A DNA stretch of 64,000 nt from Photobacterium angustum (lineage in GTDB: Bacteria; Pseudomonadota; Gammaproteobacteria; Enterobacterales; Vibrionaceae): NCBI RefSeq assembly GCF_002954615.1, contig NZ_MSCJ01000003.1:1559368-1623367 (forward strand). The letters run 5' to 3'. A program made the position numbers and the translations under genes. Shown here piece by piece: positions 23,605 through 64,000 of the stretch. Within the stretch, counting starts at the first letter, position 1, and the number at the start of each line of letters is the position of its first letter. The notes below the pieces were generated by a model. It ran no database searches, was not told the DNA's origin, and saw only the letters and a list, made by a program, of their open reading frames with translations.

Positions 23605-26367
23605 TTAATCATCAATTTTTATACCAAAGGTTAGTGTTACCGTATCGCCAGGTATAACTGTTCCAACTGTTCCTGTAATTGTGCCTGAACTACCATTCAC
23701 TATATTATTCACCGTACCAGCAGTAATTGATGGTACGCCACCAGCAACAATAAATGAGGTATAAGCAGGCGTTATATCTGAAATTGAAACATTTAGTGCA
23801 TCTTTAATCCCTACATTTTTAGCGATTAATTGATAGAGTACGCATCGGCCTGGCTCAACTGAAAGTTGAGTCGTTAAATAAGGGCCATCAGCAACACCGT
23901 TACAAGTGGTATCAATCGCTTGAAGTTTTTTCACCTCCATATTGGTGTTAGATACTCTTGTTGAATCAATGATTTCAATCACACCACAAGGGCTTGTTAG
24001 GGTTAATGTAGTAAGGTTTGTAACACCTTCCTGCGCATTTGCAGGCACAAATACTTTCACTAAGAGCAGTTTTGTAGATTGCCCTGCAATACTTGTAATA
24101 GATGTAATAGCAACATCTGCGTTGGTTAAATCACCAGAATTATCGGTATCTTCATAAATGACAGAAGTAAACCCAGCGATACTGTTTACAACTCCAATGG
24201 TTATAGGCCCAACGGCATCATTACTGTTATTTGTTAAGGTATGAACATACACTTTTGATCCACCAACATGTGTCACACCAGCCAGATTATTTGATGAGCC
24301 CACACATAAACCACTGTTATCTACAGTAACGGCATCATGTTTTGTATCTGTTGCCCCTGTGGTATCGGAAGTAACTTTAAAGTAGATAGATTGTGTTGTA
24401 CTACCTGCAGAAGCAGGGACGGTGACATCTGCGTAGACAAGTACAGCTGCATCTGGGGCTAAAACAGGGATACCAGAGATAACATTGTCAGTTGCGTCTT
24501 TGAACACAACAGTCCAATCTGCAGGTAAATCCCCTGCATTAAAATCATTATCACTGTATTCAAGTTTATAACCATCCGCGGCTGCTGATGTATTGGTAAC
24601 GTATAAGGTAAAACGTGTTGTCTTACCAGGCTCGACACTATTTGTGGTAACCGCCGAGGCTTCTGCACCAGCACCAAAACCACAGTTGTCATCAGCAGCA
24701 TCACAGCTATCTTCTGTTGTGGTTGCTGTTTCAGCGCGGAAGTTATTCGTTAAATCAACCGTGCTAAGTTCGATAGCACTTAACTGATCGATAACCGTAT
24801 TCGATTTCGAAATGTCATTCGATGAGGTTGCTCGTTTAACGACTTCAAATGGCCCACCCGTTGCATTTGGCGGTAACGTTGCCACTAGCACCACTTTATA
24901 GCCACAGTTACCGTTTACATCTGTTACTTGATAAATACGACAGGTTTGTCCTGACGCTGGGATCCTACCAGTATCAGGATTACTATCGTTATCTGTATCA
25001 ACTAACGGTGTAACGCCATCACTTTTATAAAGGAAGAAGCTAGTGCCTGCTGGGAAGGTAGAGGTTTCATAAGTAATGTTAAATGTATCTTCCGCATTAC
25101 TTGTGTTCCAAATATAGTTGGTAAAGTAAACACGCTCACCTTGTTTCGCTGATGGTACATTCACAGTTTCATGATTGGTATCATCATTACCATCACAGTT
25201 ACTATCTGTACCTGGTGTACAACCACCGTTATTTGCTATCACACTATATTCAGCATTGATTCTGAACGGCACAGTGTTGGTATCAGTAGATTCCAGTTCG
25301 CTATTATCAACTTGCCCACTGTTATCTTCATCGAAACCATAAACACCAAAGTTATAAACTGTACCCGCTGGTGCGCCATTATCAATCATCACTTCAAATG
25401 AAATAGTTGCTGATTCGTTTGAAGCTAGACCATCCATTGTAAATTCAACAATATCGCGGGTTGGACAACTAATTGGGTTATTAATACAAGTCGTGAAACT
25501 CAAATCTGATGTCCCATCAGAGCCACTACCACCAGCGGTATTATTTGATGGTGATATCTGCGTACCCGAGACACTCCAATTTACACCACCGTTAAAGCGC
25601 ATTCCTTCAGGCAATTCATCTTTTAAGATAATGCCATTGGTATTGGCAGGATTCATATCCGTGATACCAATATTGGTATACGTGAAAGTAACAGTATAAG
25701 GCCCGCTTGGTGCAGCGCCATTATCAGCACTGATTGCTTTTGTAATATCAATAATCGGTAAATCAGTGACAGTTACTGTATCTGTATTAGTTTCATTACC
25801 AACCATACCGTTAGCAACGGGTACACCGTTCACATTCACTTGCTGACTGGTTGCGGTAATGGTTAATGAATCAGACTGGTTAAGTGCAGCCGCTGCATCA
25901 ATATCAGTCACAATTACAAAGGAGTAACTTTCGCCCGGAGCCAATGGTCCAATAATATCTGAGTTAGGATCTATCGCTGCAGCTCCAGCATCGGCCACGC
26001 CATCATTTGGCGAAACATCAGGATAAATCGATGCACCAGAAATAACCGTTCCAGGTGGAACAATATCTAAATCATAAGTATCAGTAACATTACCTGTGTT
26101 AGTTAGCACATGAGTAAAGGTTACCTGACCACCTGCCGCACCTAGTTTAGACTGATCAAACGTCAACGTCATTGCAGCTACAGGTTGTACAACAGTTTCA
26201 ACTAAATTTGACGTTGTACTACGATCGATACCAGCACTGTCTCGATACGTCGCACCTGCTTGGTTTTTTATCACTGTTCCTGATTCAGTTAATGCAACTG
26301 CATAAAAACTCATCAATAACGAAACAGGCATCAATACCTTGATGATAAACCTGTAGAAGACATTCAT
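23605..26367 (-). CDS. Exported DUF11-repeat surface protein (920 aa)
   Basis: Signal peptide to about residue 25, then ESGTVIKNQAGATYRDSAG...SN, an N-terminal motif shared with the 1,105-aa and barrel proteins of the locus. The rest is a string of about six beta-sandwich domains of the DUF11/'conserved repeat' type (VTFTHVLTNTGNVTDTYDLD, YTVTFTYTNIGITDMNPANT, TRFTLYVTNTSAAADGYKLE), with paired cysteines in several. The last domain (EVKKLQAIDTTCNGVADGPY...VEPGRCVLYQL) ends on the terminal strand LTFGIKIDD. No membrane anchor or barrel. It follows the OmpA-like lipoprotein gene by 18 bp with a GGAGG Shine-Dalgarno, so it is in the same operon as the barrel gene. Probably a secreted structural or adhesive subunit (inference). 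Confidence 0.75.
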   Translation of the reverse strand: MNVFYRFIIKVLMPVSLLMSFYAVALTESGTVIKNQAGATYRDSAGIDRSTTSNLVETVVQPVAAMTLTFDQSKLGAAGGQVTFTHVLTNTGNVTDTYDLDIVPPGTVISGASIYPDVSPNDGVADAGAAAIDPNSDIIGPLAPGESYSFVIVTDIDAAAALNQSDSLTITATSQQVNVNGVPVANGMVGNETNTDTVTVTDLPIIDITKAISADNGAAPSGPYTVTFTYTNIGITDMNPANTNGIILKDELPEGMRFNGGVNWSVSGTQISPSNNTAGGSGSDGTSDLSFTTCINNPISCPTRDIVEFTMDGLASNESATISFEVMIDNGAPAGTVYNFGVYGFDEDNSGQVDNSELESTDTNTVPFRINAEYSVIANNGGCTPGTDSNCDGNDDTNHETVNVPSAKQGERVYFTNYIWNTSNAEDTFNITYETSTFPAGTSFFLYKSDGVTPLVDTDNDSNPDTGRIPASGQTCRIYQVTDVNGNCGYKVVLVATLPPNATGGPFEVVKRATSSNDISKSNTVIDQLSAIELSTVDLTNNFRAETATTTEDSCDAADDNCGFGAGAEASAVTTNSVEPGKTTRFTLYVTNTSAAADGYKLEYSDNDFNAGDLPADWTVVFKDATDNVISGIPVLAPDAAVLVYADVTVPASAGSTTQSIYFKVTSDTTGATDTKHDAVTVDNSGLCVGSSNNLAGVTHVGGSKVYVHTLTNNSNDAVGPITIGVVNSIAGFTSVIYEDTDNSGDLTNADVAITSITSIAGQSTKLLLVKVFVPANAQEGVTNLTTLTLTSPCGVIEIIDSTRVSNTNMEVKKLQAIDTTCNGVADGPYLTTQLSVEPGRCVLYQLIAKNVGIKDALNVSISDITPAYTSFIVAGGVPSITAGTVNNIVNGSSGTITGTVGTVIPGDTVTLTFGIKIDD

Positions 26368-26385
26368 ATGACGCTCCTCCGCCGA

Positions 26386-26928
26386 TTATAAGCTATTTAC
26401 CGGATTCATAATGTTTGACTCCAGTGTTTGCTTTGAATTATCAAAGAACATTGTCACTGGCTCATGATTCGCATCGAGTAAAATAAGTTGGGTACGGCGA
26501 TTTGCTCGGTTTTCTTTCTCACTGTTTGTTTTAACGAACAGCTCTCTTTCACCCGTACCAATCAGAGCCATCCTTGATGGAGAAATACCCTGACTCTGCA
26601 AATAGTTTCCAACTACTTCAGCTCGGCGAATAGAAAGTGCATCGTTATATTCATGTGAGCCAACTGGATCCGTAGAACCAACTACAGCAACATTAAAAGA
26701 TGGATTCTGTTGCAATACTTTTACTGCATTCGCTAGACGGCTCATTTCAGCTGATGTTAAATCTGATTTATCAAATTCAAAGTTAACAACACTTGGCCAA
26801 GCGTCTACCACAACTTTTGGTGCCGCTTTTTGACACGCTAAAGGGCCGTAATCTGCATATATTGCTTTATCACTGACACACCCACTTAGATAGGTACAAA
26901 CAAGCAATAAAAATAATCTTACTTTCAT
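26386..26928 (-). CDS. OmpA-family peptidoglycan-binding lipoprotein
   Basis: 180 aa. Lipobox YLSGC with Cys17. After a short linker the OmpA C-terminal domain (about 45-150) has FEFDKSDLTSAEMSRL, VVGSTDPVGSHEYNDALSIRRAEVV and LIGTGERE; Asp87 and Arg102 match the diaminopimelate-binding residues of OmpA/Pal. The GSTDPVG variant replaces the common GHTDxxG. It tethers an outer-membrane component to peptidoglycan. It lies 13 bp after the barrel gene and 18 bp before the 920-aa gene, all on one strand, so it is most likely a fixed partner of the barrel protein. Confidence 0.9.
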   Translation of the reverse strand: MKVRLFLLLVCTYLSGCVSDKAIYADYGPLACQKAAPKVVVDAWPSVVNFEFDKSDLTSAEMSRLANAVKVLQQNPSFNVAVVGSTDPVGSHEYNDALSIRRAEVVGNYLQSQGISPSRMALIGTGERELFVKTNSEKENRANRRTQLILLDANHEPVTMFFDNSKQTLESNIMNPVNSL

Positions 26929-26941
26929 TAGTTAGTTACCT

Positions 26942-29900
26942 CTATTCACTCAACCAGCCAAACAAGCCTTCATCAAGTTTGAACATCATGTTGAAATAAA
27001 AACCTTGCAGGTTATAACCTTGTGGGTCGAGATCGCTGTCTTTGAACCCAATACCGTTATAGCCAATACCCGCGCGTAAATTTTTCATTACTAGATAGTT
27101 GATACCTAAGCCATATGAATAACGGCGACTACTTAATCCATCGGTACCGAGTACACCTGCGTGTAAATCAAGATCCCAACGACGATTGAGGTAGTAAATC
27201 ACGCGTCCATCAATAATGGTTGATACTGAATCGTAGCTATAATCGTATTCGTTATAGTCTTCCCACTTAACCCCTAAGCGGCCCGATAGTAACCAATTTG
27301 ATGCTGGCTGATAGTTATGGTGTGTTGATAGAATATGAGCGGTACGTTTGACATCATTGCGGTCAATCTTCCACTCATAAACACCTAGCATGTTATAGAC
27401 GTTTGTTAAACGTGGACGGTATGAAATACCTAAGCTTAAATGTTGGTTCCAAGTGTTAATCGCTGCATCATTATCAACATAGCGGAACTCTTCACGAACC
27501 AAACCACTCCAATCTTGGGTCAAACGCGTTACCCATGCCCCTAGTAGACCATAGTAATCTTCGGTATCACCATGACGATATTCGATACGTCCTGTGGTTT
27601 TATAATTTGGGTTACGGATATCAGCGATACCTAATGAAACAGCCACGCCTGATGTACCTTCACCTTTAATGACTTCGATATATTCAGCTGATGGGTCAAT
27701 GCTGATCCCTGGCACCAGTTCAAACTTGCCACGGTAACCATTCGCCACTTCCAGAATACGGCCGTCTGATGCACCTCGTTGACGGAACTCACTGAAAGTA
27801 CTACCACCATGCTGCCAATCTACATCAATACCTGCGGTTAATAAGCTGGTAGTACCGCTACCTAAGTTACTAATACCGCCTAGTGAATCAATATATTCAT
27901 AGTTAGCATAAAGGTTCGCTTGTTTATGTATATTCCAATCCGCTTTGATATTGAAACGCTGCTGTGCGTTGCTATTGAAGCTACGCTCATACTCTGTATC
28001 GAAACGACCAGCTCGATTAAAGAGGTTAAAGCTGCGACCTAAACCGAAGATTGCTGTAGTGAATTGTTCGGTTTCACCCGTGCTGGTTTCATTTTTGATG
28101 TAACGAGAACCTAAACGAGTCGTCCATGCACTGCCAAACAGTTTAGTATCTAACGTAGCGCCAGCTGACTGTTGTTTCTCGCTCGTTTCTAGAGATTCAG
28201 AGTGGGACGCTTCAACATTCAAGTTAGTTAAACCCATTAACTTCTGACGATGACGTAAGCGAACTTCTTGTCGTGCTGGCGTCACACCACCAGTTATGTT
28301 GGTAAACCCTTTCTCTGCATATGCATATTCTAATTCGGTTTGACTTGAATCAGTCCAATCACGCTTCAAGCGAAGTTTTACTGCTGTACCGCGTTCAAGT
28401 TTTTGACCATTAGTCGTAGCATTAGAAGTGATAGTATTGGCACTTTCACTACCTTCATGGCTCATTGTTGCCACTGAAGCAGTTAATTGTGTTTGGCTAT
28501 CAATATTGTAGTTAGCCCAAAGACTCCCTAGCTTATAGCCCTCTAACTCATGTGTATTTTGCTCGTATGATAAACCCATAGCGAGCGATGGTGTAAAGAG
28601 GTAAGAGAGACGACCACCAGCGATAGTATATTTATCACCATCACCTTCTAAGTCATACGATATGCGTACTTTTATTGGGTCAAGATTTTCATCGATACTT
28701 GGGATCACTCGGTTGAACATAATTTGTCCAGTGAAGTAATCGATAGTGTAATCAATGTAGCGAATTAAGTTTTGTTCGGCTAATACTAAGCCAGGATTAT
28801 CACGGCTATAAGTCACTAACGTAATGGTATCGCTGTGGCGGATAATACGACCGTCACCTATGTCGTAAAACATCGCTGTACCGTTACCATTAATTTCAAC
28901 GACTTTATGTAAATCTTCAGGTCGTGCGGCATAAGCTTGCGCAATAAAACGACCATCGTTGTACATACCGTTAAAACCGTTCAGCACTTGGCTTGTGATA
29001 CCTAAGTCAGCCACATCCGCACCATCTGATGTGCTGTAATCACCCCACATCGCAAAGTGACGTTCTCTTTCTAACTTAGCGAACCATTTACTGGTACTGC
29101 GTGCATCATAACCACGGATACTTGCATCTCCTGGTAATGGATAGTAACTATCAGGGGCGATTTCACGTAGATATTCTTCGTCATCCTTGTCGCTGTCATA
29201 GCTTAATGTTAAGTGCATGCCTCCTTTAACCTGACCTTTCATAAAGATGGCTGCACGTTCATCATCACTATAACTATCATCTTCATAGCCTTCAGCTTGG
29301 CGAGATGGCTCTTCACCACTGATTCGACCATAGCGTCCAGTATATTCAAGTAAGCCAGAAACAAAGAGTGGGCGAGCTGCCGCTACTTGGTATACACGAG
29401 CGGTGTCAGCGATATCATTTAATGACGCAGTGATATCCATTGCACCCGTTGTATTCGAACTACGTAGGTAAACTGTTTTCTCTCCGTTTACGACACGTAC
29501 TTGATGACCTGTTTCATCAGGGTGAATATCAGGCTCTAACCAATTATTCTCTTTATTTGAATTCAAGGTTACGAAGTAAGTACCACGGGCTATCTTGTTA
29601 TTCTTATCAAATAGCTTGATATTGAGTGGAATAACAGAGCGTCCACCATCAGCATGTAATACCTTGCCATCAGTGCTTAAGCTAATTCGATCAGCTGAAT
29701 CAGGATGAGAGAACACTTTACTTAATAATGTACGCTCATTTCCGAAATCATCTGTCGCTTTCACTTCAACAAGGTTATCGCCAGGCTCAAGATTAACCCC
29801 ATACCAACCGAGTATTTGTGCCTTTTCTTTCTCATTACGAATTTGCTCACCTAACTGCGTATCGCTCACTTTACTACCATTCACATATAGCGATGGTTTA

Positions 29901-32900
29901 ACAGATGCAGGGACAACGATAATGAAACGTCCGTGGTAGCTATAGTCGCCTTTTGGCCAATACCATGTTCCTTTTTTCGCTTCTGCACGCGTAATTTTTG
30001 CAGCATCTTTTTCTGGTAATGGGATATCTTCTTCTATCTTGTTATCAATATTGAGGCGAGCAGCATAAGGGATGTTGTTATAAGACGTTTCCACTACTTT
30101 GGTATTAAAATTACTGGTTTGAAGTTTTTGCTGTAGTGGAACGAGTAGGTCTTCTTTATCAGCAAAACCAAATCTTAGTGATGCATCATCACCCGCAAGA
30201 TAAACATACGCTTCATCCTGAACACCTGACGGTAATAGGTTATAGAACTCTTTCATTGAACGCTCACTACCCGAACGTAACTCAAGAGCATAACCTTTGA
30301 AACTATGTAACGTTGGTGATAGCGATGACGCTTCGTTGTTAGACGTTGTTGCTTTTGGACCACTAACAATACCCGAGGTTAATTCATTTCCTTTACGCTC
30401 AACTGTACGATTGCTTAGTCCTTTAAATTGCTCAGTAGTATCAAATAACCAATCACCATTGATGTCTTTATTTCGCCCTTTTAGCTCATTATAAACAGCC
30501 TCTGGGTTATTCTCTGGGCATGGTGCTACAAAGTCTGCTTTATGGAATTCACCACGACGTAAATCAACAAATCGTGAATCACCCATTCCTGCATTACGTG
30601 TATCAATTGCTTGTAATTCGACACCTTCTGGTAATGTTTGCTTATCAACTTTTAGTACATGAGTACCCGGTTTCACACCAAACATCGAGTACTGACCGTT
30701 TTCATCAGTTATGACGTAATCACCTGTTTCTAGGTAGATTTTCACACCACCAATTGGCCACGCACTACTCTTAATATCTTTGTTACAATGTCCATCAACA
30801 TACACTTTACCGAAGATGATACCTCGTTCTGACATTACCCCAGTTTGCGTAATACCCAGTTGATATCGTGCAATATTTGAAGATGTTGGCTGACCATTAT
30901 CTAACGAGCTGATGATACTTGACGCTAATGTGTTCGCGACAGCTTGTGCTGAGTTAATACCATCAGAGTCAACTGCACCTGCTGTAAGTTGAAGGAGGTA
31001 TGTAACAATATAAGTACCATTATTTGGAGCGATAGTAGAACCATCGACATCACCAAGGTTAAACTCAATACTGTATGTTCCTGTTTGGATCGGATCTTCT
31101 AATGGCTGATCATTGAGACGCGCACTACCTTTCATGTATTTGAAACCATACGGTAGCTCATCAATAATACGTGTATTATAGAACGTCGATTCAGGTAAGT
31201 TATTTTTCAGTGTTAAGGTGTATTTAACAAATTCACCTATTTCAGCCGTTTCTTTATCTGCTGTTTTCTCTAATGTTAGGCGTCTATCTAAATTCGATGG
31301 ATCTAAAGGTATATCAAAAATGTTTAATCCATTGAACGAACTTATATAGAATAACCCTGAGTTTTCTTCTCCTGTATAACCGTTTGCACCATAAGATGGA
31401 GCTGAAACTTGGTAAGAATTAAAGACAAGTGGATCTTTATATTGTGTTGGCCATGAATATCCTTCTGGTGGCTCAACAATGATAAAGTAACCTTCATTTG
31501 AAATTGGTAGTTTTGGATAGAACACACGACCGTTTTCATCCGAAACAGCAGTAGCAATAGGTTCACCTAATACATCAGGTACTTTACCATTAACGGTTTG
31601 GTAGAATTTAACCACAGCACCTTCAATACCAGGAATGAGATCGCCATTTTTATCGTATTTGAAGTGAGTAGAATCAAAGACTGTGAACTGTGGGCTTACT
31701 GTCGCAACATCTTGTAAGAAAACAGTATTATTTTGTGTATCACGTACCTCAACCGTTAATTTATCGTTTGGATTAGATTCAATACCACAATTATTGAAAG
31801 TTTTGCCATTTAAGCCACTGGCTCTAAAGTTAATAATGTCGTTAATTTGTGACTGTTGTTCAGCTCGGCTGACTTCACCAGCTCTCCACACTCCTGGGAA
31901 GGCTTCATGGCAGTAATTAGAATCCCTTGCCTGTGGCCCGCTCTGATCATTCGGCTCTACCGCACTGATAGGCATTACACTTCTGAAAATACCTGTATCA
32001 GGCCCTGTTTCAGCAAATACCCAATAGAACTCATCACCAAATGATGAACGTAACTTAACAGGGAAACGAGAATCTTTAGGACCAATAAAATCAATGACAG
32101 AAGAATCTAGATTCGCAATAGGTAAGTTGATGCGTGCATGAATGGCATCAATTTTAGGATCGTGACCCGGTGTGCCTTCGCGGAAGTAAAAATCAGTTGG
32201 CAAGAAGTGAGCTTCATTCGAATAATTAATGCCTTTATCATCAAAATCAATGGCTGAAGTATCAATGGTCTCAAAGTCAATTAATTTGCCGCCTGATTGT
32301 AACCCAATTCCACTTAACGTATTACATTGAATATTACTTTTAACAATAAGTGGATCACCAGCTAGTAAGTTAACAGATGCTTGGCTAAATACTTTAAATT
32401 CAGGAGAGTTATTAATATTGTTAACTTTTGAATAATAGGTGAAATGCCCAGATGTTCCTGGTTCCATATTAGAAGGGGTAACTAAGAAACCCATTTTCTC
32501 GACAATACCGTTACCATCCCATACCGAATAATCGATCCATTTTAATAAGCGATCATCGCCGTTTGTTATTTCACCAGTATTTAAACCAACAAGTACAATA
32601 CCACCATTAAATTTCGCTAACGGTGAAGCAATGATAATTGGCGAATAATCACGCTTAGGTTGACCATCAACCACTCTATCTTGTTGAATTGTTACATTCG
32701 CAGGTTTTTTAACCGTAATCAGTACACCAGCATGCCTTTTTTCAACTAATGTGCCGCTAGCATCTTGCGTAGAAAATACATAAGGTTCAGTTGCAGCTTG
32801 CGGACGCTCTGTACCCACACTGTTATAAACAACCTTATATTCAATATCTTCACCGCTCTTCACTGGAGATTGACAGACAGGATCTGATCCTACGGTTAAA

Positions 32901-33550: not shown

Positions 33551-33586
33551 AAGCGCTCTCCACTGGCTAATAATTCAAAGAAAGAT

Positions 33587-33644
33587 AGGCTTATTAAACA
33601 TATTTAAATAAATACGTTTAATAAGCCTCCCAATTAAGGGAGGC
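33587..33644 (-). promoter_or_regulatory. Two overlapping, mutually exclusive hairpins before the barrel gene
   Basis: GCCTCCC (33625-33631) pairs with GGGAGGC (33638-33644). AGGCTTATTAAAC (33587-33599) pairs with GTTTAATAAGCCT (33616-33628). The two share bases 33625-33628, so only one can form. They sit between the stop of the 1,105-aa gene and the barrel gene, where they could attenuate read-through or protect the upstream message. Confidence 0.55.
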
Positions 33645-33659
33645 TTGTATTTTTATTGA

Positions 33660-36600
33660 TTAGTCAACACGAACAGTAAATATACCTACAGCTTTATCAC
33701 CAGGAGCTAATGTAGCAACGTCAAAGTCAACGTTAGTACCATTAACATTCGCAGTGATATCAGCACCAGTACCAGCCGCTGGATAACATAAGTTACCTAA
33801 GTCAGCTTCAATAGCAGTGTCGATTGGGTATGTTGGATCCGTTGGTGTAACAGCCACTGCAACATCAGTCGTTAGACGACAGTCATTCGGTGCTTGTGCA
33901 GTTTCTAGCGTTGTATTCGCTGGAACAGCATCCGTAATTACTGTGTTAAGTGCTGGTGTTTGGCCTTGGTTCCAAGCAACAAGCATCCAAATTACACATT
34001 GTTGAGGCTCAATACCTTCGAAGTACTGAGTGAAACCAGTATCGGCAGTACCGTCACAGGTTGCATCAGGAGCCGCATATTTGTATAGGCGAACCTGACC
34101 ACGAACAATTTCAGTGGTATCTAGAGCGCTAGTTGTTAGTGAAGAATCTGAATCAGACTCAGCCGTAATGGTTGTAATGTTCACACTACCTGGTGCAGCA
34201 TTAGCAGGGCCAAATACTGTCACTTCCATTGGAATAGTTTCACCAGGTTCTAAGTTAAACATTGGTGTACCATCAGGTTTACAAGTAAGCTCAATGGTTT
34301 GATCTACACCGTCAGTACCTTCAACTGTGATTGTCGGTGAAATTGCAACACCTGCAGGACACAATGCTGTGATAGCTGTATCTGGAGTACCGTTACCATC
34401 AGTGTCAATCTCAATTTTGTGCGTGAAGCCATTATCATCAGTCGCAGCTAATGTAATATCAGACTCTGTAGTATTACCAGTATTTGTTAATACATGGTCG
34501 TAAAGTACAGAACCACCTGGCTCAACTTGGTTTTGACCTGTTGGAGGGGTAATTGCGATAGATTTCGCAGATAGAACATCAATTGCCTCAACCTTACGGT
34601 CTTCAGCGCCTGAGTTTGCAGAGGTTACTTTAATAGAGATAATATAATCATTATCACCATCAACATTGGCATCAATCGTACCAGGCTGTTGACTATCAGC
34701 TAATGCTTTAAGCGCATCAGATGGTAGTGTAATTTCAGCCGTTACGAACTGTACTGCGCCACCAGGAATTTGTGCTGTAGCAAAGATTTGTGCACCTGTA
34801 CCTGGAATATCTACAGTACCATCGGCGTTAGTATCAATACCTGCATCAAGGAATTTCACAGTCCAGCCATCAGGCAATGCTGTGTACCAAGAATTAGATC
34901 CTGCGTCATAACTACCTTCAGCAGCAAGCGTGAATGAATCTTGACCACCGCCTTTGTTAGCAATATAAATCGGTGCCGTTACTGTCGTAGCTAGAGGTTG
35001 GTCATTGAATACTGTTGCAATATCGTCAGCAGGCGTACCGTCAGCATCTAACACACCATCAGTCACATCGACTAAATCAATATCCGTTGCTGGTGCCATG
35101 TCACCATTAGCATCAATAAACGGATTATTTGACACATCAACCGTTGGAGGCGTTACACTTGTTAAACGCTCAATTTTGCTATCCGTCTTAGTACTATCAT
35201 TAACCGATGTTGCTGTTGTAGTCGCCTCGAATGGACCACCAGTCGCACTTGCAGGCAAGCTAACGACAACACGGATCAATGTTTGGTTACACGCAACAGT
35301 AATACCATCAACAACTGTTGGAGCTACACCTGCAGCCACACAAGTCGATGCTGGAATTGCACCTGTATCTGCAATACTGTCACTACTCGTGTCAACTAAA
35401 GGACCAGTACCTGTATCGTTAAAGAACTTGAAGGTTGTTCCAGTTGGATATGGGTTAGTTGGGCCATTTACAGTCACAAGGTTAAAGGTATCAGTACTAT
35501 TACCTGTGTTAGTAATAAGGTTATAGAAGAACACATCACTACCAGCTGATGCATTGTCTACAGTTTGTACATTATCTTCTGTACCATCATCATCACCACC
35601 TTCACCACTCGTTGATGGGCCATTACTTCCTGTATCAGTAATAGAGCCACCATAGGTATTTTCTGAAGTGATTGGGGTTGGATTAGTAATGATTGGACCA
35701 GGTTTGGTTGGGCTACCACACTCATTATCATCGACATAATCGGTGTCACCAGAGCCACCGTTTAAGTTTGCACAGATAAAGGCTTGGTTATTAATGTCTG
35801 TACCGCCTTCCACCATGTTTGGCGAATACCAAACAGAGAAGTTCATCGATACCGTACCGCCAGAAGGTAGTGAGTTATCAATCGCAAACACACCAGGAAC
35901 AACTGCATCAGCAGTATCACCATCATGGTTAAGATCTAAACCACCAGCAATACCACCTTCACCGCTATTTTCAAGTGAACCATCTTGGTCTAAATCAACG
36001 CTAACACCAGATGAATTTAGTAATGAGTTTTCATCTGTTAAGTTAGCAGCACTTGTTACAGATGTATCACCATCAGCAACAACTAAACCTGGGCTAGAAA
36101 GTGATGAAGTAATTAATGTCGTGCCATCAGGAATACCATCAAACATGTGAACATCTGTTGCGGAAGTATTACCTGTATTCGTTGCAACAATGCTGTATTG
36201 AATAATATTTACAGCTAAATCTGTTGAAGGGTCACCATCGACATCAATACCTGTGGATGACTCTGTACCACCTTTGATTTCGTTTGCTGTCTTATTCACA
36301 TTAATAACAGCATCGTTAGTAATAGTGATTAAGTCACCATTCGTATCATCAGCACTATCATTATTAGCACCAATATCTGAGACCGCATTTGCAACAGGAG
36401 CACCTGTACCTTCATGTGCTTGAGCTGTAAATGTGACACCTAACTTATCACCGACTTGTGCAGAGCTTGGTACTTCAACTGCTAATATGTAGTAATAAGT
36501 CTGCCCTGCTGGAATGGTAACAACAGAACCACTTGGGATTGCTGCTTCACCATTATCCGGTCGACCAGTTTCATTTCCATCCCAGTACATAGTGATACTG

Positions 36601-36977
36601 TTTGCATCAATATCATCCGTACCACGGGTGTCTCCGCTAGGTAAACCTTGAGCATAAGATAATGTAAAGTCTTCTGGACCATTACCATTATTCGTTAGCT
36701 CGTGGACAACATATTTAACTTGACCAGCGGCAGCTGTATCATCAAAGTCATCCTCTAATGTCGCGGCATAAATTTGCGCAACTTTTACTACAGCTTCATT
36801 AGAGAAGGCTTGGTAGGTATTCCCCAACGAATCTTCATAGTCAACTTTAGCTTCATTTTTAATTTCAACGCCGGCTAGAGTTGTAGATGCAAGGGCTTGG
36901 CTAGTAAGTGTACCTGCACCTATCGTTATGAGACCCGCTGCAACCCATCGACATATAGGTTTTAAATGCGTATTCAT
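33660..36977 (-). CDS. Exported DUF11-repeat surface protein (1,105 aa)
   Basis: Signal peptide ends near SQALA; AAAGGTAACC lies before the ATG. The mature N-terminus STTLAGVEIKNEAKVDYEDSLG...SNEAVVKVAQ carries the same motif as the barrel and 920-aa proteins. Then come about seven acidic beta-sandwich domains of the DUF11/'TIGR01451' type with repeated NTGN (VHELTNNGNGPEDF, LITNTGNSTDTFNL, DHVLTNTGNTTESD), rich in Asp, Thr and Gly and poor in Lys. The last domain repeats the D-x-T-C-D-G-x-A-D...Q-C-V cysteine pattern of the 920-aa protein and ends AVGIFTVRVD. It lies 92 bp after the small DUF11 gene. Likely a major extracellular subunit, perhaps S-layer- or fibre-like (inference). Confidence 0.75.
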   Translation of the reverse strand: MNTHLKPICRWVAAGLITIGAGTLTSQALASTTLAGVEIKNEAKVDYEDSLGNTYQAFSNEAVVKVAQIYAATLEDDFDDTAAAGQVKYVVHELTNNGNGPEDFTLSYAQGLPSGDTRGTDDIDANSITMYWDGNETGRPDNGEAAIPSGSVVTIPAGQTYYYILAVEVPSSAQVGDKLGVTFTAQAHEGTGAPVANAVSDIGANNDSADDTNGDLITITNDAVINVNKTANEIKGGTESSTGIDVDGDPSTDLAVNIIQYSIVATNTGNTSATDVHMFDGIPDGTTLITSSLSSPGLVVADGDTSVTSAANLTDENSLLNSSGVSVDLDQDGSLENSGEGGIAGGLDLNHDGDTADAVVPGVFAIDNSLPSGGTVSMNFSVWYSPNMVEGGTDINNQAFICANLNGGSGDTDYVDDNECGSPTKPGPIITNPTPITSENTYGGSITDTGSNGPSTSGEGGDDDGTEDNVQTVDNASAGSDVFFYNLITNTGNSTDTFNLVTVNGPTNPYPTGTTFKFFNDTGTGPLVDTSSDSIADTGAIPASTCVAAGVAPTVVDGITVACNQTLIRVVVSLPASATGGPFEATTTATSVNDSTKTDSKIERLTSVTPPTVDVSNNPFIDANGDMAPATDIDLVDVTDGVLDADGTPADDIATVFNDQPLATTVTAPIYIANKGGGQDSFTLAAEGSYDAGSNSWYTALPDGWTVKFLDAGIDTNADGTVDIPGTGAQIFATAQIPGGAVQFVTAEITLPSDALKALADSQQPGTIDANVDGDNDYIISIKVTSANSGAEDRKVEAIDVLSAKSIAITPPTGQNQVEPGGSVLYDHVLTNTGNTTESDITLAATDDNGFTHKIEIDTDGNGTPDTAITALCPAGVAISPTITVEGTDGVDQTIELTCKPDGTPMFNLEPGETIPMEVTVFGPANAAPGSVNITTITAESDSDSSLTTSALDTTEIVRGQVRLYKYAAPDATCDGTADTGFTQYFEGIEPQQCVIWMLVAWNQGQTPALNTVITDAVPANTTLETAQAPNDCRLTTDVAVAVTPTDPTYPIDTAIEADLGNLCYPAAGTGADITANVNGTNVDFDVATLAPGDKAVGIFTVRVD

Positions 36978-52459: not shown

Positions 52460-55400
52460 TTAATCCACCTTAACTTGATAACTCACATAACCACTCTCAC
52501 CAGGAGCTAGATTATTATTGAAATGCCATTCAACTGCACCTTGATAACCCGCATTATTAGTACCATTAGGCGTTAAAATGGAGCTGCAAACTAACGTTCC
52601 TGGTAGCGATACCGCAGGAGGCGTACATAAGATTGTCGTCGATAATGATGTGAAATCTGGGATCAAATCAGAAATAATTAAATCATCGACATCACCTAAT
52701 CCATTATTTTTAAAATAGATTCTATATTCTAAAATATCGTTAGGTTTGGCCTTATTACTTCTTGATTCACCCGTAGATGTAGTGATATTTAGCACTGTTT
52801 TTTCTATTTCTAAATCACTAGAACCACTGTAAGTCACTTTAATTGTATCTGTATCGGAAACCTGACGAACAATGGGTGAATTACTAAACGTTACATTCGC
52901 AATAAGTTCGTAGCGACTAATAGCATTGAGTGGCGTATTGGATGGCATCATAGATTTAACAACAAGGCATATTTCAGGTGCAGAATCTGCATTCATATTG
53001 AATGGCGCAACCACAGCGATATCTGCTGGCATATCTAACACACCGTTACAGCTAATATCTTGATAAATAATATGACTCCAGTTGTACCCTGATGGCGATG
53101 CTTGTTCATTGGCTAAACTAAACGTTACCGTACCTGACGTATCGATAATAAATTTATGGCTCAGGAAGACTGGTAATCCAACTAAGGCATCGACAGAATT
53201 ATCAGGTTCTAAAACCGGCTCTTGGACTTTACCAAAGTCTAAATTATCCAAAATATCACCAGCAGTAGCGTTGATCAGCATTTCACCGTCAAGTAATGAA
53301 TTATTAGTAACTTTCCCCACTAAATCTAATGCAGGATCTGTAACATCACTTTCTGATATATCAATCCAAGCAGCTTGCGAAACCACGATCAACTTGACGT
53401 TTTTTTCTGATAAATCAACAGGGATCACAAGAGTAAAACGACCATCTCCTGAGGTAATAGTTCGGTTGATCTCTTGTCCGGGGTTAAAACCCGTTATTGC
53501 TGTATCATCATAAACCGCTTTAACAATGAATCCATGTAAGCCTTGTTCATCACCAGCCTGAATACCATTATGTGCAGTGGTAGCGCCTTTTCCGTTGTCT
53601 TCAAATACTTTCCCATTTAAAGTGATGTCCATATCAACAGGTACATTAGCACTAAACTCCGATGTATCTTGCAGTGAACCAAGCCCGCCGGTTGTTATAC
53701 GATAAGCAATAACTGTAATTTCATCACCATTTACGAGTCCTGGTACTGCTGTAACGTCATTGAGGTTAGAACCAACAACACCTGTAATACTGTATAGATA
53801 CGTTTCACCTTCCCCAGCAGCACGACTATCACCACCAGTATCACCTGTACCTGCATTGACTTTATAAACTTCAAAGACAAATTCACCCGTACCACAAACA
53901 CTGCCAGTCACGGTTAAATTGGTACCGTCATAAACTGCACTATCAATTTCAGGCCGTGCTAAATTGTTATTTGCCCCAGCTCCGGTATTGTTATTACATA
54001 TATCATTATTAAGAGATACGCCATCACCAGTGGCACCATTTTGTAAGTCAATAGAATTGGAATCATTGTTGCTGAAGGTATTTTTAGTAATTAAGTAGCC
54101 TCTAACATTGGTATTTCCATCAATGGAAACACCCGAACCACCATTATTGTGTAAGACATTACATTCAATGGTTGAATGGCGACCACTTCGATAATGAATG
54201 GCATCACCATCAGCATTTTGAATATCATTACTCGTGATAGTTTGGTTTAAATCAACGGCTGAAGTAAGGCTCTGGTTAATACCATCCCCCGTTGCTTCAC
54301 GTAATATATTACCTTGAATATTTAGATAACTTGGTGCGCCTCGAGCAATCACAACATTATGATAAGGTGTCGCTGCAGTAGAGGTTGTTCCTAATAATTG
54401 GTTATGAATCACTTGCCAATTAATCACATTAGTTTGTGATGTTAAATTATTAAATGAAATATTATTATGTGCTGTCTTTATTGCGTTATAACGGATCACA
54501 CCACTGTCACCAGTTAATGCACTATTTCCGGCATTAGAAATAGCAATACCAGCACAACCTAATGATGTTCCGCAACCTTGGTCACCAATCACATCATCAT
54601 TACCAGCAGGATCAATACCAATGAGGTTATTTTCAATTAATGTATCTGTAATATTGGCTGCATTAACGTTAATTCCTAGCGAACCACCAGTCAGAGATAA
54701 ATGTTTAACCGTCGTATTATCAGCACTGATAGTAAGCAGTTCAGCATTGTAGGGGCTAGCATTGGTTGCCATATCAATTTGTAATTCAGGTTTAGCTAAT
54801 GGTGGGATAACTTCTGTTGTACATCCAGTATTACTCCCCACTATTTGTGCCGCAGAATAATTTCCAGGATTAGAATCAACAACTGTTATCCCGTTGGTAT
54901 GGCTATACACAGTTCCATCAATAGTTGTATTGGCACCATTCATACCTGTGATAGCAATCAGTGATGATGTTGGTGTGATGACCCACCAATCTACACTTGC
55001 ATCAGTATCATTGGCAGGAACTGCTGGGACAAAGCGCATTTCGTTAGCACCAGCAATAGTATTAGCATTAGTAATAAATTGATTTAACGAGCCTTGCGCT
55101 GTGTTATTTAAATTTGTAACAACGTTATAAGAGAAACCAAAATCTAAGTTATTCACCGCCTGTGACATACCCGAAAATTCAATTCGAGTAATATGTTCAC
55201 GTAAAGAAAGGTTACCCGTTCCATTGTTGGTTGCACGATCGCCATCCCAACCACCAAAACAAGAACCCGTTGTATTGATCGGCGTTGCATCAGCGACCCC
55301 ATCCCCATTCGCGTCACAATAACCAGTCGCAAAGGTACCATTTATATTATCCGTCACTGCTGTGGTATAGGTTTGATCAGCGACTGCGCTACCTGTTGCT

Positions 55401-56764: not shown

Positions 56765-56901
56765 CAACCTCATCCTCATGAAAAGGTAATTTTTCGATTT
56801 ATATTTTAACGTGTGTAAATTGTCGTCTATTTGTTCCGTTTCATTTATTAGAAAGTAGAATATGACTTAAATATCAATTTAATTAATTAAAAACATGCAA
56901 T

Positions 56902-56933
56902 AAAAAAAGCGCCAACTTATGTGACGCTTTTTT
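56902..56933 (-). terminator. Terminator after the first giant gene
   Basis: On the minus strand GCGTCA and TGGCGC pair (one wobble) around CATAAGT, extended by A-runs pairing with T-runs, followed by seven T. The symmetrical A/T flanks would also work on the plus strand. Confidence 0.75.
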
Positions 56934-56949
56934 AAATAACGAATTGTAT

Positions 56950-59900
56950 TTAATTCACTTTAACGCGATAAATGACTTGTCCACTGCTACCTGCACTCAT
57001 TGTACCTGCCATATCCCATTCAATATTTCCTTCGTAACCAATTTGATTCGTTCCATCAGTAGTTGAAACGGTACATGTTAGCCCCGTTGGTACTGTCGCA
57101 TCTGAACATAGTACGGCTTGACTCAACTCGGTGAAATCTGGGGTTGAATCGAACAGTTTTACATCACTAATATTGGCATTACTGAAGTTTTTAAAGGTAA
57201 TGACATACTCTAAAATATCACCCGGTTTGGCATTGTTTGTCGTCCCCGGTGGGGTTCCTTCAGTAATGTTTTGTACGGTCTTCTCTATCGTTAACTCACC
57301 ACTGCCAGCAAATGTCACTCTGACTGTATCTGTATCGGTTAATTGTCGAGTGACGCCGCTATTAACGAAGCTCATGTCCGCTTCTATATCGTAATTGTAA
57401 TTACTGTTCGCTGGCGCATTGCTCGGCGATTGCACTTTAGAGAGTAAGCAAACAGAAGAGCCTGCTGTTGTGGCGACTGGGTTCACGACTTGATTATCGC
57501 CACCATCTAACTCGCCATTACAATTATTATCAATAAAGAGTATCGCTGACCAACCGCCAATACCACTTGGGCCTGTCGTGTTATTGATGATATTGAAGTT
57601 AACATTACCTTGGGTATTGACTGTGAATTTATGACTAAATAGCGCTAAGCCTCCTGGCTCTATTTCTGTAAAGTTATCAGGCTCCATATACGGCTCACTA
57701 ACTTTACCAAAGTTAAGACCTGATAAGTTATCACCCGCTTGCAGTACAACGGTCATTTGGTTATCCGTGACACTGGTACTTGTCACTTGTGGGATACCGC
57801 TAACATCCGCTTCACTGATATCAATCCAATTGGCTTTTGAACCAACCCGTACAATGATTGGCTGCCCTGCTAATATCACTGGCACTGCAAACGTATAACG
57901 ACCATCACTGCCTGTTAACGCCGTTGCTATGATGTCACCGGTGTTATAACCCGTAATATTCGGTCCATTATAAATGGCTTGTACTTTAAAGTTCGCAAGG
58001 CCTCGCTCTGTGCCATCTTGAATACCATCATGGGCATCTGTTGCACCACCGACACCGTTATCTTCAAAGATGATGCCACTGATAGACATTTGCTGAAGCA
58101 CATTCACGGTGTAATCTTCTACCTCACCATTATCCACTGTGCCTGTTGGCGCTATACATTGATTCGCTGCACTACAGAGACGGATTCGAATAAAGGTGGT
58201 GCCATCATGCCCATTACTGATCCCTGTTGGTAAGAAAGTCGGGATCGTATTGAGACCTGCGGTAACAGGGAAGTCTTGTACCACATGCTCACCAGGGTTA
58301 TTCGTGAAGGTACCGTCGTTATCTAAATCCATGAAGATATTGATATGACCACTACCGCCTGTCACCACAACATCAATGTCATTCGATACGCCAACGAGCA
58401 TATCACTCGGTAGGGTGACCCCATCTTCATCATCGCTACCGGTCACATCATCACCCGTTGCATCGGCGCTAAAGAATGGATAAATATCTGGATCCCATAC
58501 CGTACCCATAATTAAGTCTGGCGTACCTTGTAGGCTCACATCACGATTTCTATGGCCTACTTCACCATAGCTTTCTGGTGCATCCCCTTTATCTCGGCTA
58601 GCAATACAGCCCGATGCATCTTGGAAACCAAGCTGGGTCTTATCACTGGCAACGATATAGTTACCTTGTTTAGTGATAAGGTTGATACGGTACATCGCCA
58701 CTCTGTCGGAAGTGATATCATAAGCACCATCTTGATTGGTATCATGATGACCAAAGTTGGTCATCGCATATAAGTGGTTCACATCATCGGTAACAACAGC
58801 ACCACTCCACGCATTCGGTGCTTTACCTTGGAAGTTAATGTCTTCAACCGTGACCGTATTACTCACCGGATCTAAGATATAAAGCTTAGGCTGAGTCGGC
58901 TCTAACAGGGTGAACGTCAGTCCTGCTGCAAACCCTCTACCTGTCAAATCCACAGAGTAAATATTGCCATCGATTTCTGAAATCGCCCAGTCCGCACTGG
59001 TTCTCAATAGCCCTGTTCCGGTATCAATCATGGCTGACGGTGTAGGTTTCACTTCAAAGGTCATGGATGGAATATCAATAATTAAGTAACTGCTCCACGT
59101 TGAATGCGTCACATAATATTTCGTTCCATCACGGGATAATGTCCCCATATTTGACTGAGGTAAGACAGGTGGGAATAGCCCGAATAGCCCTGCAGCGGTA
59201 TTTAATGGATTACCCGTGGTGACACTTCTCGATGTGCCGCCATCAATACGGCTTACCGTGTAATTACCCGCAGCGCGAGGAGCCCCCATCGGTACCCATG
59301 TCACACCTGTTCTATCTGTCATAATGACCGCTAAATTACCAGCACCATCTCGATACGTAGAGTACATGCGTCCATTATCACGGTTTATGGCCAGCGAGTT
59401 CAGTCCACTATAAACAACACTGTTATTTAAGGTGGTAAATGAGAAACTCAATGGCTGCACTGGTGTTACCGCAGAGAAACTGTAATTAGGATCACTTGGT
59501 GCTTGCGTGACATAGAAACGGTCACACACATCATTGACTTGGAAATTACTGATCATGATACGGTAATCTTCGACCTCACCATCAGAAGCTTCACCTGTTG
59601 GGGTATTACAGCTGGTATCTGTAGAACACACCCTAACCCGTAAGTAGATATTACCTAACGTGACGGTTGTTGGAATGGTGGTTGGGAAGGTCAACATACC
59701 TTGTGCTGCGGTTGGTTGATTCACCACTAACTCAGTCACCGGATCCCATACACCATCGGCATTCCAATCCATCCAGGCGTAAAGTTGGAGACCATTAAGG
59801 GTGGATTGTGCGTCTTTCGTTACTGTAATTTCGATATCAATCGTATCACTTGGTGCTGCTTCTGTTGGTAACGTAACGCCATCTTCATCGTCAGTACCGT

Positions 59901-62900
59901 CTAAGTCATCAGCAGTGGCAGTCACATTTTCTAGTTCACCTGAATCAATATCCCACGCTGTGCCTAGGGTAATATCGACTTGATTGTCACCATCCGTATC
60001 AGCTTTATCATGTCGTGCACCATCATTGAGTGATGTAGTTTGGTAATTCCCCATACCTGTGCCTGATGTGGTATCAGGTGCATCACCATAATCTTGTTCA
60101 ATCGCAGCAACTTGACAACTATGTTCAAGCGCTCCAACAAACCCATCGAACGCCGTTGAGCCATTCCACATAACAACTCGATGAATCGGGGTTCCACCTG
60201 TATCTGTGGTATTCACTTCAAATGCAGGACCATTATCTGGATAAGATTTGGTTGCGATAACATTGTTATTTAAATCCAATGCGACAACAGAAATGGTACC
60301 CGATGAACCAGAAGGATCACCTACGGCTGACACTGTATTCGCCGTTCTTGGCGTACCATCTACATTCACCAAGGTGTAAGAAACAGCGTTACTAGAAGCG
60401 AAGATCATTTTGCTATCGACTTGATAGCCAGCAGGTTCACCATGCCCAATAATATTTGCATCTTGAATGTAACCATATGGTGCACTTCTTGATACTTCTT
60501 CCACCAATAAACCTTTAGATTGCCAAGTCGTTGCTGGATGTCGTCCCGACGATAGACCATCAGTGAGATCAGTATAGGTTGTTGCTAGACCCGTTGAGCA
60601 TTCATAAACTTGTAATTGATGATCTTCCACCTCACCATTTGACGCAATACCGCCTGTATCAGCACTGGTTAACCCATCGCTTACTGGTGCCAAACGCACA
60701 CGCATATTGTAAACACCGTAACTAATAGCACTAATACTTGGCCATGTAATATCATAACTGGTCAAAGTATTATTTGATGGAACAGTTTGAGTGATCGCTT
60801 CAGTTGTATCAAAAGTACCATTACGATCAGTATCGAACCATGCAATAAGAGTTGCATCTTCCCCTGTGTTATTAAACACTTGTGCTGTTGCGGTATAGCT
60901 AGTCTCATTCAATTGAAGTTGAGGTAACGTTACCCCTTGCTCATCATCGCCAGTAGCATCATCAAATGTTGCATCACTGCTTGCCATTGATGCTTCACCA
61001 TCAACATTATTAGCACCGAGATACAAGGTTGACGAGAAAATATGTTTTGGACCGTTTTCAGAAAGCTCAACAAGGTAGGCTTGTGGCGCATCACCACCAT
61101 CCATAAGCGTTTCATCAGCAACAATAGTTAAAGTATGATCTTCTACTTCACCAACACCGAAATTACCGCCCATATCAGCATCTGTCAGCGTATCTGTTGT
61201 AATACGTAAACGAATGAAAGTATCACCACTTGCAGGCGTTGCACTGTAACCACTAAAGGAAAGTACAGCGACACCATCACTGGTATTATCGGCATCAACA
61301 CAGTCAGCAGAAGCAAACTCTCCCGCTTGACCAAAATCACCACTGATATCAAAATCAACCCAGCCGTAGACAGTCGCACCTAAGTCATTAGTACCATCAT
61401 GATCGTTACACGTTACCGCAACCATATAATTGCCAGTTGAACGAATATAAACCGGTGTGGATAAAGCATCCTCATCATTAGTGGCTGCAGCATTATCACC
61501 CGTAGCGTCTACTGTTGGCACACCATCAGCTTCGATATCTGTTGCCGCGGTACCCATGAAGATAATAGAAGATGCAGGGTGAGTTGGGCCGCCCGATGCT
61601 CTGAGTGTTTTATAAGTATCAGGTGCATCACCAAAGTCTAACGACACCAATGAAATATCATCACGGAAGTCAAGATCTTCTTTGAGCGGAACAATCGCAC
61701 CATCAACAGCATCGGTATCAACATCACCAAATATGGTGACTAAATGTGACACTGTATTTTGAATAACTTCATCGGTTGGGCTCCAATTACCAGGCGATGT
61801 ACCAATGACTGTTGAATCATCAATCGCATCGAAAATATCTAATAACCCATCACCATCAGTATCCACAGTACTAGTCACGGAATTAGGATGACTAGGGCCA
61901 TTTTCAGCAACATCATCAATGCCATCAGCATCAGAATCTGCATCAACATAATCAGGTACCGTATCGCTATTAACTAGCGCAGTTGCATCGGTATTCACGG
62001 GTGTTAAGCCTAATCCACCACTTGAACTCGTGGTTAAATAAGCTGTGTTCAGACCATTATTGGAGATATATTGAGCGAAGGTATCTGAATTAGGTAAAAT
62101 ATAGCCATCAGAGGTTTGTGCTTCGATATTATCAGGAATACCGTCATCATCAGCATCAATATCTTGATGGTGTCCCTCTTGAGTAACCGCTAAATCTCGT
62201 GTTAAGAATTCAACACCACAAATAGCGAAGTCATTACCCTGACCACTATTGTTACTACCACTAGCGACAAAGTTATTTCTCACCGCTAAGGTGGTTAATG
62301 GCTCGTTGGCTGCAGGTGTGTAATCAAACGTATAATAATGCTCACCATTAATGATCGTTTCATTTGGATTAATGATTTGATTATTAATCACACCTTGCGT
62401 TGGCGTCATCGTTGTTTGTGACATCAGAACGCGTAAACGGTATGTTTCACCTGCTTGTAATGTGACTGACGGTAGGTATTGTGGTAATACACGATAGAAT
62501 TCGTCATTAAATGATGTTGCATTTAAACCTTGTCCATTACAGCGCCCTGCCGTATCAAACTCATTACACAATGTTAAATATGCGTAATAGCGACCACTGC
62601 TACAACTACCACCATAACCTTGCCAAGTGTTATTCACTTGGTTACCAGTGTTACTTCCCATGCCATTTTGTCCAGCACAGACCAATGCATTACCTGATGG
62701 GTTACTATCACCAACACCACCTACATGTGATGGTGAATAATAGAAACCATCACCAGTATGTTTAACAAGTGGACATTGATTTGGATCGTTTGGATTCGCA
62801 GCATCAAAGTAATCTCTGTAGATATAATTAGGATCATATCCAAGCTCATCGACATCTAAAATACCGTCGTTATCATCATCGATATCAATAATGTCTGGTA

Positions 62901-64000
62901 CACCATCCCGGTCAAAATCTGACTGTGATGACCCACCTCCCGTCCCACCACTTGCGACTACTCGAATAGAATAATCTTCGATTTCACCTTGGGTTAATTG
63001 CACCCCAAGAGCACGTGGGTCTTCATCTGTATTCGTGGCACCAGCGAGTGCTAATTTAGTTTCAGACAAGCGGAAACGAATACCATAATGCTGATTCACT
63101 AACGGCCAACTAGTAATATTTCCCCAAGTCACGCTGTAATTAGTCGCTGAGCCACCATTATCAGGAATCACTATTGCGCCATCATCTGCAGGACTGCCGA
63201 TCGACGTTAATTCACCGACATCCAATTGACCATTGCGATCTGAATCTAACCACGCATAGAGATAAGCATCAGCGCCAGTGTTGTTAGACACTGACAAATC
63301 AAAGCTTACTAAATTATCCGTTTCATTGACGGTTACTTGGGTGGATGGTAAAGAGTCTTCATCATCACGTGTAGCTGTTGGCGTACCAGAAGTATCATCT
63401 GTTGTAGGGTGTGACGCCGTATAAGTTGTATTGTACGTTGAACGGTTATGAGGATCGGGATCGGTCGGATTAGTACCAATATAAAGATTTGCACTTGGAA
63501 GATGCGCAGGACCTTCATCATGTATACGAGTATGGTAATCAACACTGGTATTAGTTGAAGAAGTACCTAATGCCGTATCACGTAAATCACCAAGATCAAA
63601 ACGTCCAATATAAACACGGTGGTCTTCGATATCACCGATGGCATCAACAATGCCTAAAGAACGTGGATCTTCGTCTGTACCTGACTTACCTTGAAGATCT
63701 ATTTGATCCTGTGATACGCGAATACGCATAAAGTAATAATCGTTCACGAGATTATTAGGCAATATAAATCCAACATCAAATAGAGTCGCATTATTGGTAT
63801 ATAAAGCTTCGCCTGTAATACCTCCATTGGTACGATTAATAGCTTCATCTACTTCAAAAATGCCATTTTTATTCCAGTCAATCCAACCATAAAAATAAGC
63901 TGAACTACCTGTCGTATTGGTCATCGGCTCAAAACGTATAATGTGTGAACCTGTATCGCTACCTACATTAATAATGTTATTTGGATAATAAAGATCTAAC
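56950..64000 (-). CDS. Giant secreted modular protein, 5' end beyond the window (more than 2,340 aa)
   Basis: The frame is open through base 64000: upstream of the internal ATG 63924 it still encodes GEVED-module sequence ([14 protein letters not shown]), so the true start lies outside. Visible are six GEVED-type modules ([48 protein letters not shown]), most introduced by a GDAPD-like segment. Calcium-binding thrombospondin-type-3-like Asp repeats lie at about 62940-61830 ([19 protein letters not shown]). A propeller-like domain is encoded by about 59530-58600 ([10 protein letters not shown]...DASGCIAS). The common C-terminal module (about 58090-56950: [20 protein letters not shown]...[14 protein letters not shown]...) ends VIYRVKVN. 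A terminator follows. Likely a very long calcium-stabilised extracellular adhesin. Confidence 0.8.

Follow-up and report, generated by a model that had tools for sequence, protein, structure and literature searches.

How a Gram-negative bacterium docks and displays very large exported proteins is the question raised by a locus of Photobacterium angustum, which lies in a stretch of 64,000 nt (contig NZ_MSCJ01000003.1, positions 1,559,368 to 1,623,367), hereafter called the window. Between window positions 23605 and 64000, nine open reading frames (ORFs) follow each other on the minus strand in an unbroken row, from P0001 (23605-26367) through P0009 (56950-63999). A preliminary description of this DNA had proposed that nine such genes, coding for giant exported proteins, one barrel protein (P0003) and one OmpA-type lipoprotein (P0002), make up a dedicated export and display machine, and all nine ORFs were recovered in place. 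In addition, we identified a new pattern that this description had missed, namely a putative complementary split of DUF11 domains between N- and C-termini: the C-termini of the giants and of two candidate link proteins (P0001 and P0004) appear to lack the end of the domain, and a hairpin resembling the missing part opens the candidate links and the barrel protein. This split points to a fibre-assembly rule beyond a secretion signal alone. From the sequences at hand we cautiously favour reading the locus as a whole as a dedicated system that would build anchored surface fibres.

Barrel and cargo module occur in the same genomes

The giants share a C-terminal module of about 389 aa, which had been noticed before and proved to be real. 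Within the genus, where every candidate was scored, a full-length barrel was found in 17 of 52 genomes and the module in the identical 17, while none of the 35 genomes without a full-length barrel carried it. That most genomes with giants might lack the barrel, which the preliminary description had named as speaking against its proposal, was thus not borne out. A short DUF11 stretch was the only match to the barrel query in an 18th genome of the genus (G020). In a phylum sample of 398 genomes, 52 have the barrel and 7 the module, and all 7 are among the 52. Broader models applied to a class sample of 369 genomes detected the barrel (E 1e-20 or better) in 51 and the module in 9, with the barrel in 8 of these 9. 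The sole module genome without barrel (G803) is an 88%-complete metagenome-assembled genome in 330 contigs, and its congener G691 has the barrel. For these two wider samples scoring was confined to the leading first-look candidates of each genome (2 for the barrel, 4 to 5 for the module), so that misses are possible. The proposed constant set, in which cargo goes with a single barrel and a single peptidoglycan anchor, is supported.

Calculated without regard to phylogeny, the co-occurrence has p-values of 4.6e-14 (genus), 4.5e-7 (phylum) and 6.5e-7 (class), or of 3.4e-6 (phylum) and 4.2e-6 (class) when the query genome is left out. The sampled genomes share ancestry. The co-occurrence might reflect the common descent of a few lineages instead of a functional link, the more so as the 17 genus genomes may represent one or two clades and the p-values carry no phylogenetic correction. 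However, several further families represented in the phylum and class sets show the same link with differing gene placement, and we regard shared ancestry as a most improbable explanation. A co-inherited system of barrel, OmpA protein and cargo is very likely.

The closest named relative found was Photobacterium lucens, in which the match to P0003 spans the entire 2202-aa protein, with 88% identity in the best segment. A search for related loci returned eight, six from Photobacterium and two from Halomonas. The gene order P0005-P0004-barrel-OmpA-P0001 is kept in five of the Photobacterium loci (L003, L004, L006, L007 and L008) and in the Halomonas locus L010; L005 and L009 are short contigs with parts of this order. 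The same order was found in G061, which belongs to another Vibrionaceae genus (L038 and L073). On an Acinetobacter plasmid, barrel, OmpA and P0001-type genes stand in succession with a P0005-like gene upstream, and the position of P0004 is taken by several shorter ORFs in a row, DUF11/NEW3 and hypothetical ones. In Acinetobacter haemolyticus (L034) the barrel operon is plasmid-borne; the plasmid is typed as mobilizable, and arsenic-resistance genes lie a few kb from the operon.

The placement of the OmpA domain varies more widely. In the 24 loci that come from other genera (L034-L057) it is encoded by a separate adjacent gene in 7, lies within an adjacent larger protein in 2, is fused into the barrel ORF in 8 (including L054, for which the barrel match was taken from the separate phylum-sample search) and was not found in 7. 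We also assembled a test set of 19 barrel loci (L101-L119) picked from the class-sample hits by the barrel alone, none of which contributed to our donor, DUF11 or OmpA models. Here OmpA is fused between the N-terminus and the barrel in 13 loci, adjacent in 3 and absent in 3.

Cargo proteins are dispersed and end in the module

The module is strictly positioned. Of 61 full module hits, a few P0001-type proteins included, 60 end 0-1 residue before the stop codon and one ends 8 residues before it. In a comparison of 16 cargo proteins the module matched in 120/120 pairs, as follows from their selection, and the N-terminal parts matched in 51/120, mostly via regions that we read as GEVED-type. G061 has a single barrel locus and six module proteins spread over two contigs, none of them adjoining the barrel; the module reaches the C-terminus in five of the six, and in the sixth the match stops early. 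One barrel together with scattered module proteins is an arrangement like that of a dedicated secretion system. Remote cargo was also detected in the Photobacterium genomes G005, G008, G024 and G028. Moreover, in 14 of the 17 genus genomes a small open frame (140-178 codons) matches the module end only. We consider it likely that the C-terminal module acts as a docking signal for dispersed cargo.

In several Photobacterium genomes, module-bearing open frames are as long as 7,600-8,131 codons. At the other extreme, two of the small frames that match the module end, orphan ORFs of 166 and 139 aa (L081, 7091-7591; L086, 5674-6093), consist of a signal peptide and a truncated DUF11 domain only, and lie a few kb from a gene whose N-terminus we read as acetate-kinase-like. 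A similar neighbourhood in G022 (L090) holds a full cargo protein of 870 aa.

The adhesion-type domains of the giants (GEVED and L-type lectin) would suit an adhesion island without an export route of its own, in which the barrel serves as an anchored adhesin or resembles an autotransporter, the giants leave the cell by other means and the genes are merely co-inherited. Against this, module proteins encoded far from the barrel occur almost only together with it in the samples searched, and none of 15 barrels matched the Pfam models for autotransporter, TpsB, usher or DUF560 proteins. We hold such an island to be quite unlikely.

C-termini of cargo and candidate links stop short within DUF11

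To define the complete domain we used a DUF11 model of 126 positions derived from 52 internal domains. Position 103 is Asn and position 40 is Asp in 52/52 of these; position 6 is Lys in 46/52, the remaining 6/52 having a gap. The DUF11 domain of the Acinetobacter barrel protein aligns with the CLIPPER structure 9IFR (E 6e-4), for which PMC12617251 gives the residues Lys715, Asp748 and Asn806 and places the last strand after the Asn. The three conserved positions correspond to these residues, with the Asn on the penultimate strand, the match of the Asn being read from the alignment.

We then examined 62 acceptor C-termini, 59 of them from the module model and the others from P0001, P0004 and P0005. 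All 62 match the DUF11 model, none extends beyond position 97, and 13 stop at position 77 or earlier. Over all loci, distinct C-terminal DUF11 hits end at positions 84-99 in 87/90 cases, with one ending at 100-117 and two complete. Distinct internal hits end at 84-99 in only 7/156 cases, with 50 ending at 100-117 and 99 complete; as the model was built from complete internal domains it favours the internal figure, and it cannot shorten the C-terminal hits. By this comparison, the C-terminal DUF11 domains are predicted to stop before the last two strands. The Asp is kept in 58/62 acceptors. The Lys is present in 49/62 by a strict pattern and in 56/62 judged from the aligned rows; four acceptors are without it, and P0004 and P0005 are ambiguous. 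In P0001 (920 aa, an exported DUF11-type protein) the C-terminal region with the truncated domain (23608-24000, minus strand) covers model positions 11-92 and ends 2 aa short of the stop. P0005 (37070-37567, minus strand, 165 aa) comprises a signal peptide and a single truncated DUF11 domain, with Gly at the Asp position.

N-terminal hairpins align to the missing positions

P0001, P0003 and P0004 begin, after the signal peptide, with a hairpin of the consensus G-T-x-I-x-N-x-A ... S-N-x-V. We built a donor hidden Markov model (HMM) from 17 N-termini of this type, these three among them. On the minus strand, the hairpins map to 26176-26292 in P0001 (aa 26-64, donor HMM E 6e-22), to 33356-33469 in P0003 (aa 28-65) and to 36768-36884 in P0004 (aa 32-70), an exported protein of 1105 aa (33660-36977, minus strand) with a DUF11-like tail. 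The model gave 51 distinct hits in 2892 ORFs, 50 of them N-terminal. All of 49 distinct hairpins align inside positions 95-126 of the complete-DUF11 model, 48 starting at 95-103 and one at 113, and 47/49 carry Asn at column 103. Profile-profile comparison (hhalign) of donor and DUF11 models gave P 0.0015 with template positions 100-125, and 0/200 column shuffles reached this score.

Among 92 distinct acceptor-ended ORFs the hairpin was also seen on 19 and on none of the other 73, for some of which the N-terminus is out of sight because the 5’ end is cut by the locus border. Hairpin-bearing barrel proteins are without acceptor. In the test loci, ORF ends with truncated DUF11 lie beside 18 of 19 barrels (34 ends in total; two DUF11 ends in L117 were called complete and counted as ambiguous), and a donor hairpin starts 11 of the 19 barrels.

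Another reading would take the C-terminal module as a plain secretion or sorting signal, comparable to the C-terminal domain of type IX cargo, read by an exporting barrel, the short DUF11 as a complete fold and the hairpins as an unrelated small domain. Dispersed cargo with one barrel and the strict C-terminal position fit this equally well, and the hairpins are individually weak matches that go uncalled on many distant barrels. It leaves unexplained, however, why the C-terminal and rarely the internal DUF11 domains end at the same point, and why the hairpins, located at the opposite ends of barrel and link proteins, align precisely to the positions that are missing. We judge it improbable, yet weightier than the two alternatives above.

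P0003 ends in a large barrel

P0003 (26942-33550, minus strand, 2202 aa) is the candidate base and translocon. Besides the donor hairpin it carries DUF11- and SdrD_B-type domains found by Pfam, an Ig-like domain and the C-terminal beta-barrel. One complete internal DUF11 domain (30842-31300, minus strand) has Lys, Asp and Asn. The barrel domain covers approximately 26945-29383 on the same strand (aa 1390-2202, the boundary being an estimate). An AlphaFold2 model of residues 1050-2202 was poor (mean predicted local distance difference test score, pLDDT, 50.6; predicted template modelling score, pTM, 0.33), but we counted about 36 consecutive strands in its secondary structure. Among the better parts of the model, the barrel region matches outer-membrane barrels and the region upstream of it a GH2-type Ig-like domain. 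Profile comparison concordantly related the barrel weakly to the porin OmpT and the Ig part to the C-terminal domain of beta-galactosidase. The model thus identifies the C-terminus of P0003 as a predicted outer-membrane-type beta-barrel, in agreement with the earlier assignment.

The barrel fragment matched no family in Pfam or NCBIfam. At E 0.01 no Pfam match to usher (PF00577), TpsB, autotransporter or DUF560 models was obtained on 15 barrels, nor did these match NCBIfam SprA at E 0.1. At about aa 1595-1615 the motif RYIDYTIDYFTGQIMF lies in that part of the barrel for which even the most distant relatives give a match; it could be a plug. A second, shorter barrel of 1199 aa is encoded elsewhere in the same genome (L100, 8528-12627, G000:C1) with a 168-aa OmpA-like protein directly behind it, and close to it, at G000:C1:686716, an open frame of 3033 aa matches DUF11. 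Neither donor nor acceptor was called at this second locus.

P0002 (26386-26928, minus strand, 180 aa) has a lipobox-like LSGC motif and matches Pfam OmpA (E 2.7e-20), which bears out its description as an OmpA-type lipoprotein and candidate peptidoglycan anchor. N-termini resembling signal peptides were seen by crude hydropathy in eight of the nine locus proteins, consistent with their proposed export; P0009 shows no signal peptide, its 5’ end being cut off by the contig border.

A model for fibre assembly

We propose that the locus proteins are exported via signal peptides, the step most directly legible at sequence level, and that P0003 would insert as a large barrel tied to the cell wall by P0002. 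The links P0001 and P0004 and the giants would end in a DUF11 domain without its last two strands, and the N-terminal hairpin of the next protein would supply both. P0003 as donor only would form the base, P0001 and P0004 with both ends the links, and the giants as acceptors only the tips, which would compete for a donor. Assembly by donor hairpins seems moderately probable to us. More speculatively, the joint between acceptor and donor might turn covalent through a Lys-Asn isopeptide bond, since the residues of the isopeptide-forming DUF11 domain (CLIPPER) are conserved here, Lys and Asp in most acceptors and Asn in the hairpin; we find such a joint rather doubtful. P0003 may finally serve as the pore through which the chain leaves. 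P0005 might cap the donors, which is a guess, and a role as chaperone can be asked for as well. The dedicated export and display machine first proposed is supported in part: its being dedicated is strengthened by the dispersed cargo and the OmpA-barrel fusions, and for export through the P0003 barrel we see the balance as even.

Several observations weigh against this model. The hhalign probability is 17% for so short a stretch, and single hairpins score a median of 3.5 bits against the DUF11 model, which 7.8% of letter shuffles reach. The barrel donor was called in only 6 of 24 distant loci (L034, L037, L038, L040, L041 and L042), and 8 of the 19 test barrels had no donor call at threshold, the hairpin of L117 being on a separate upstream ORF. 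The window’s P0004 fell below the acceptor threshold, so that its status as acceptor rests on the tail motif, although five other copies of P0004 passed. For P0005, which lacks the Asp, and for the four acceptors without Lys, the bond would be impossible by known chemistry. In the fused barrels OmpA lies between hairpin and barrel, which puts this stretch in the periplasm, so that the hairpin may be periplasmic, which may complicate its role as base of a fibre outside the cell. The AlphaFold2 model of the P0003 barrel is too poor to serve as a structure.

Comparison with known systems

Type IX secretion relies on a C-terminal Ig-like sorting domain on scattered cargo, a large outer-membrane barrel and an OmpA-family partner. 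The system described here resembles it in this cargo logic, in the large barrel and in the OmpA partner. However, the 15 barrels gave no match to the SprA/T9SS family, and the scanned cargo has no T9SS-type C-terminal domain, with Por_Secre_tail and CHU_C absent from the Pfam hits of the four window giants and eight other cargo proteins. PF14349 (SprA) was found in 0/6 genomes in a search whose control likewise matched nowhere.

In chaperone-usher pili such as type 1 and P pili, the tip adhesin has an acceptor and no donor, as the giants would have here. In these pili the N-terminal extension of the next subunit completes an incomplete Ig-type domain, and an outer-membrane barrel stands at the base, as restated in PMC9715654. 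Donor completion by the next subunit, the basal barrel and the acceptor-only tip are thus shared with the proposed fibre. By contrast, DUF11 would be short of two strands instead of one, an OmpA partner is present, no PapD model matched among the nine locus proteins at E 0.01, and no Pfam usher match was obtained on the 15 barrels. Given the lack of usher, TpsB, autotransporter or DUF560 barrel matches and of a T9SS-type cargo domain, we did not file the locus as a member of a known system.

For archaeal threads (Saci_0406), PMC9715654 describes head-to-tail donor-strand complementation, an apparent intersubunit isopeptide bond between the N-terminal amino group of Asp24 and Asn57, and a putative cap protein. 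By this description the idea of a covalent head-to-tail fibre is alike, whereas the threads are archaeal and their bond is a different one. CLIPPER belongs to the same DUF11 family and has Lys, Asp and Asn at matching positions, but in PMC12617251 its bond is intramolecular and located in a stalk, whereas here the strands with the Asn would be on one protein and the part with Lys and Asp on another. The words barrel and secretion system are absent from the text of that paper.

Further giants and neighbouring genes

The remaining ORFs of the locus, all on the minus strand, code for the giants. P0006 (38206-45381, 2391 aa) and P0007 (45395-52276, 2293 aa) have GEVED and L-type lectin domains according to Pfam and end in the module (38209-39375 and 45398-46564). 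The two genes have 4.7 kb in common, with 91% DNA identity over the C-terminal two thirds, and their N-termini differ, a pattern that we take from the sequences to be domain shuffling among giants. P0008 (52460-56779, 1439 aa) has GEVED domains, a weak beta-helix match and the module at 52463-53638. P0009, an open giant of 2349 codons, has six GEVED stretches and the module at about 56953-58116. ORFs were called mechanically in six frames, so that their starts are approximate.

The contig (1,623,367 bp) stops exactly at window base 64000, and the 5’ end of P0009 lies beyond it. The 40-kb locus of giants was confirmed in place, although not as a complete array, which continues with further giants at the opposite end of the same contig. 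One of these (L078, 7389-15257) is 97-99% identical to P0009 (window 56838-64000) in two blocks; its middle is unlike that of P0009, and it is split across two overlapping frames. The pair may have arisen recently as mosaic paralogues, or it may be an artefact of assembling a circular replicon.

Usher genes had been reported as lacking. This holds for the operon and not for the wider window, where a separate chaperone-usher cluster (7171-12988, minus strand) lies 10.6 kb from the operon. It encodes a FimH-like adhesin, two more Fimbrial-domain proteins, an usher of 838 aa (9154-11670, 410.7 bits) and a PapD-like chaperone, and an AraC-type regulator is encoded beside it (6345-7064).

Implications

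We found no description of such a system in open-licence PubMed Central full text, which leaves out most subscription papers and preprints. That the locus represents an unrecognised Gram-negative pathway of fibre building and export, with an anchored barrel of about 36 strands, serving interchangeable giant adhesins that join head to tail by natural split isopeptide domains, is unlikely in our estimation. In this split-isopeptide reading, cargo and links would end in a Lys/Asp catcher, and links and barrel would begin with an Asn tag. Members of the barrel family occur in 51/369 class genomes, yet the P0003 barrel matches neither Pfam nor NCBIfam models. If the split-isopeptide reading is true, the chaperone-usher pilus would have a covalent counterpart in this system. 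If the reading as a fibre system is right, the locus would offer a natural source of split covalent tags and explain how giant DUF11/GEVED adhesins are docked and displayed in Gram-negative bacteria, and the rule of donor only, both ends or acceptor only would predict base, link and tip from the sequence.

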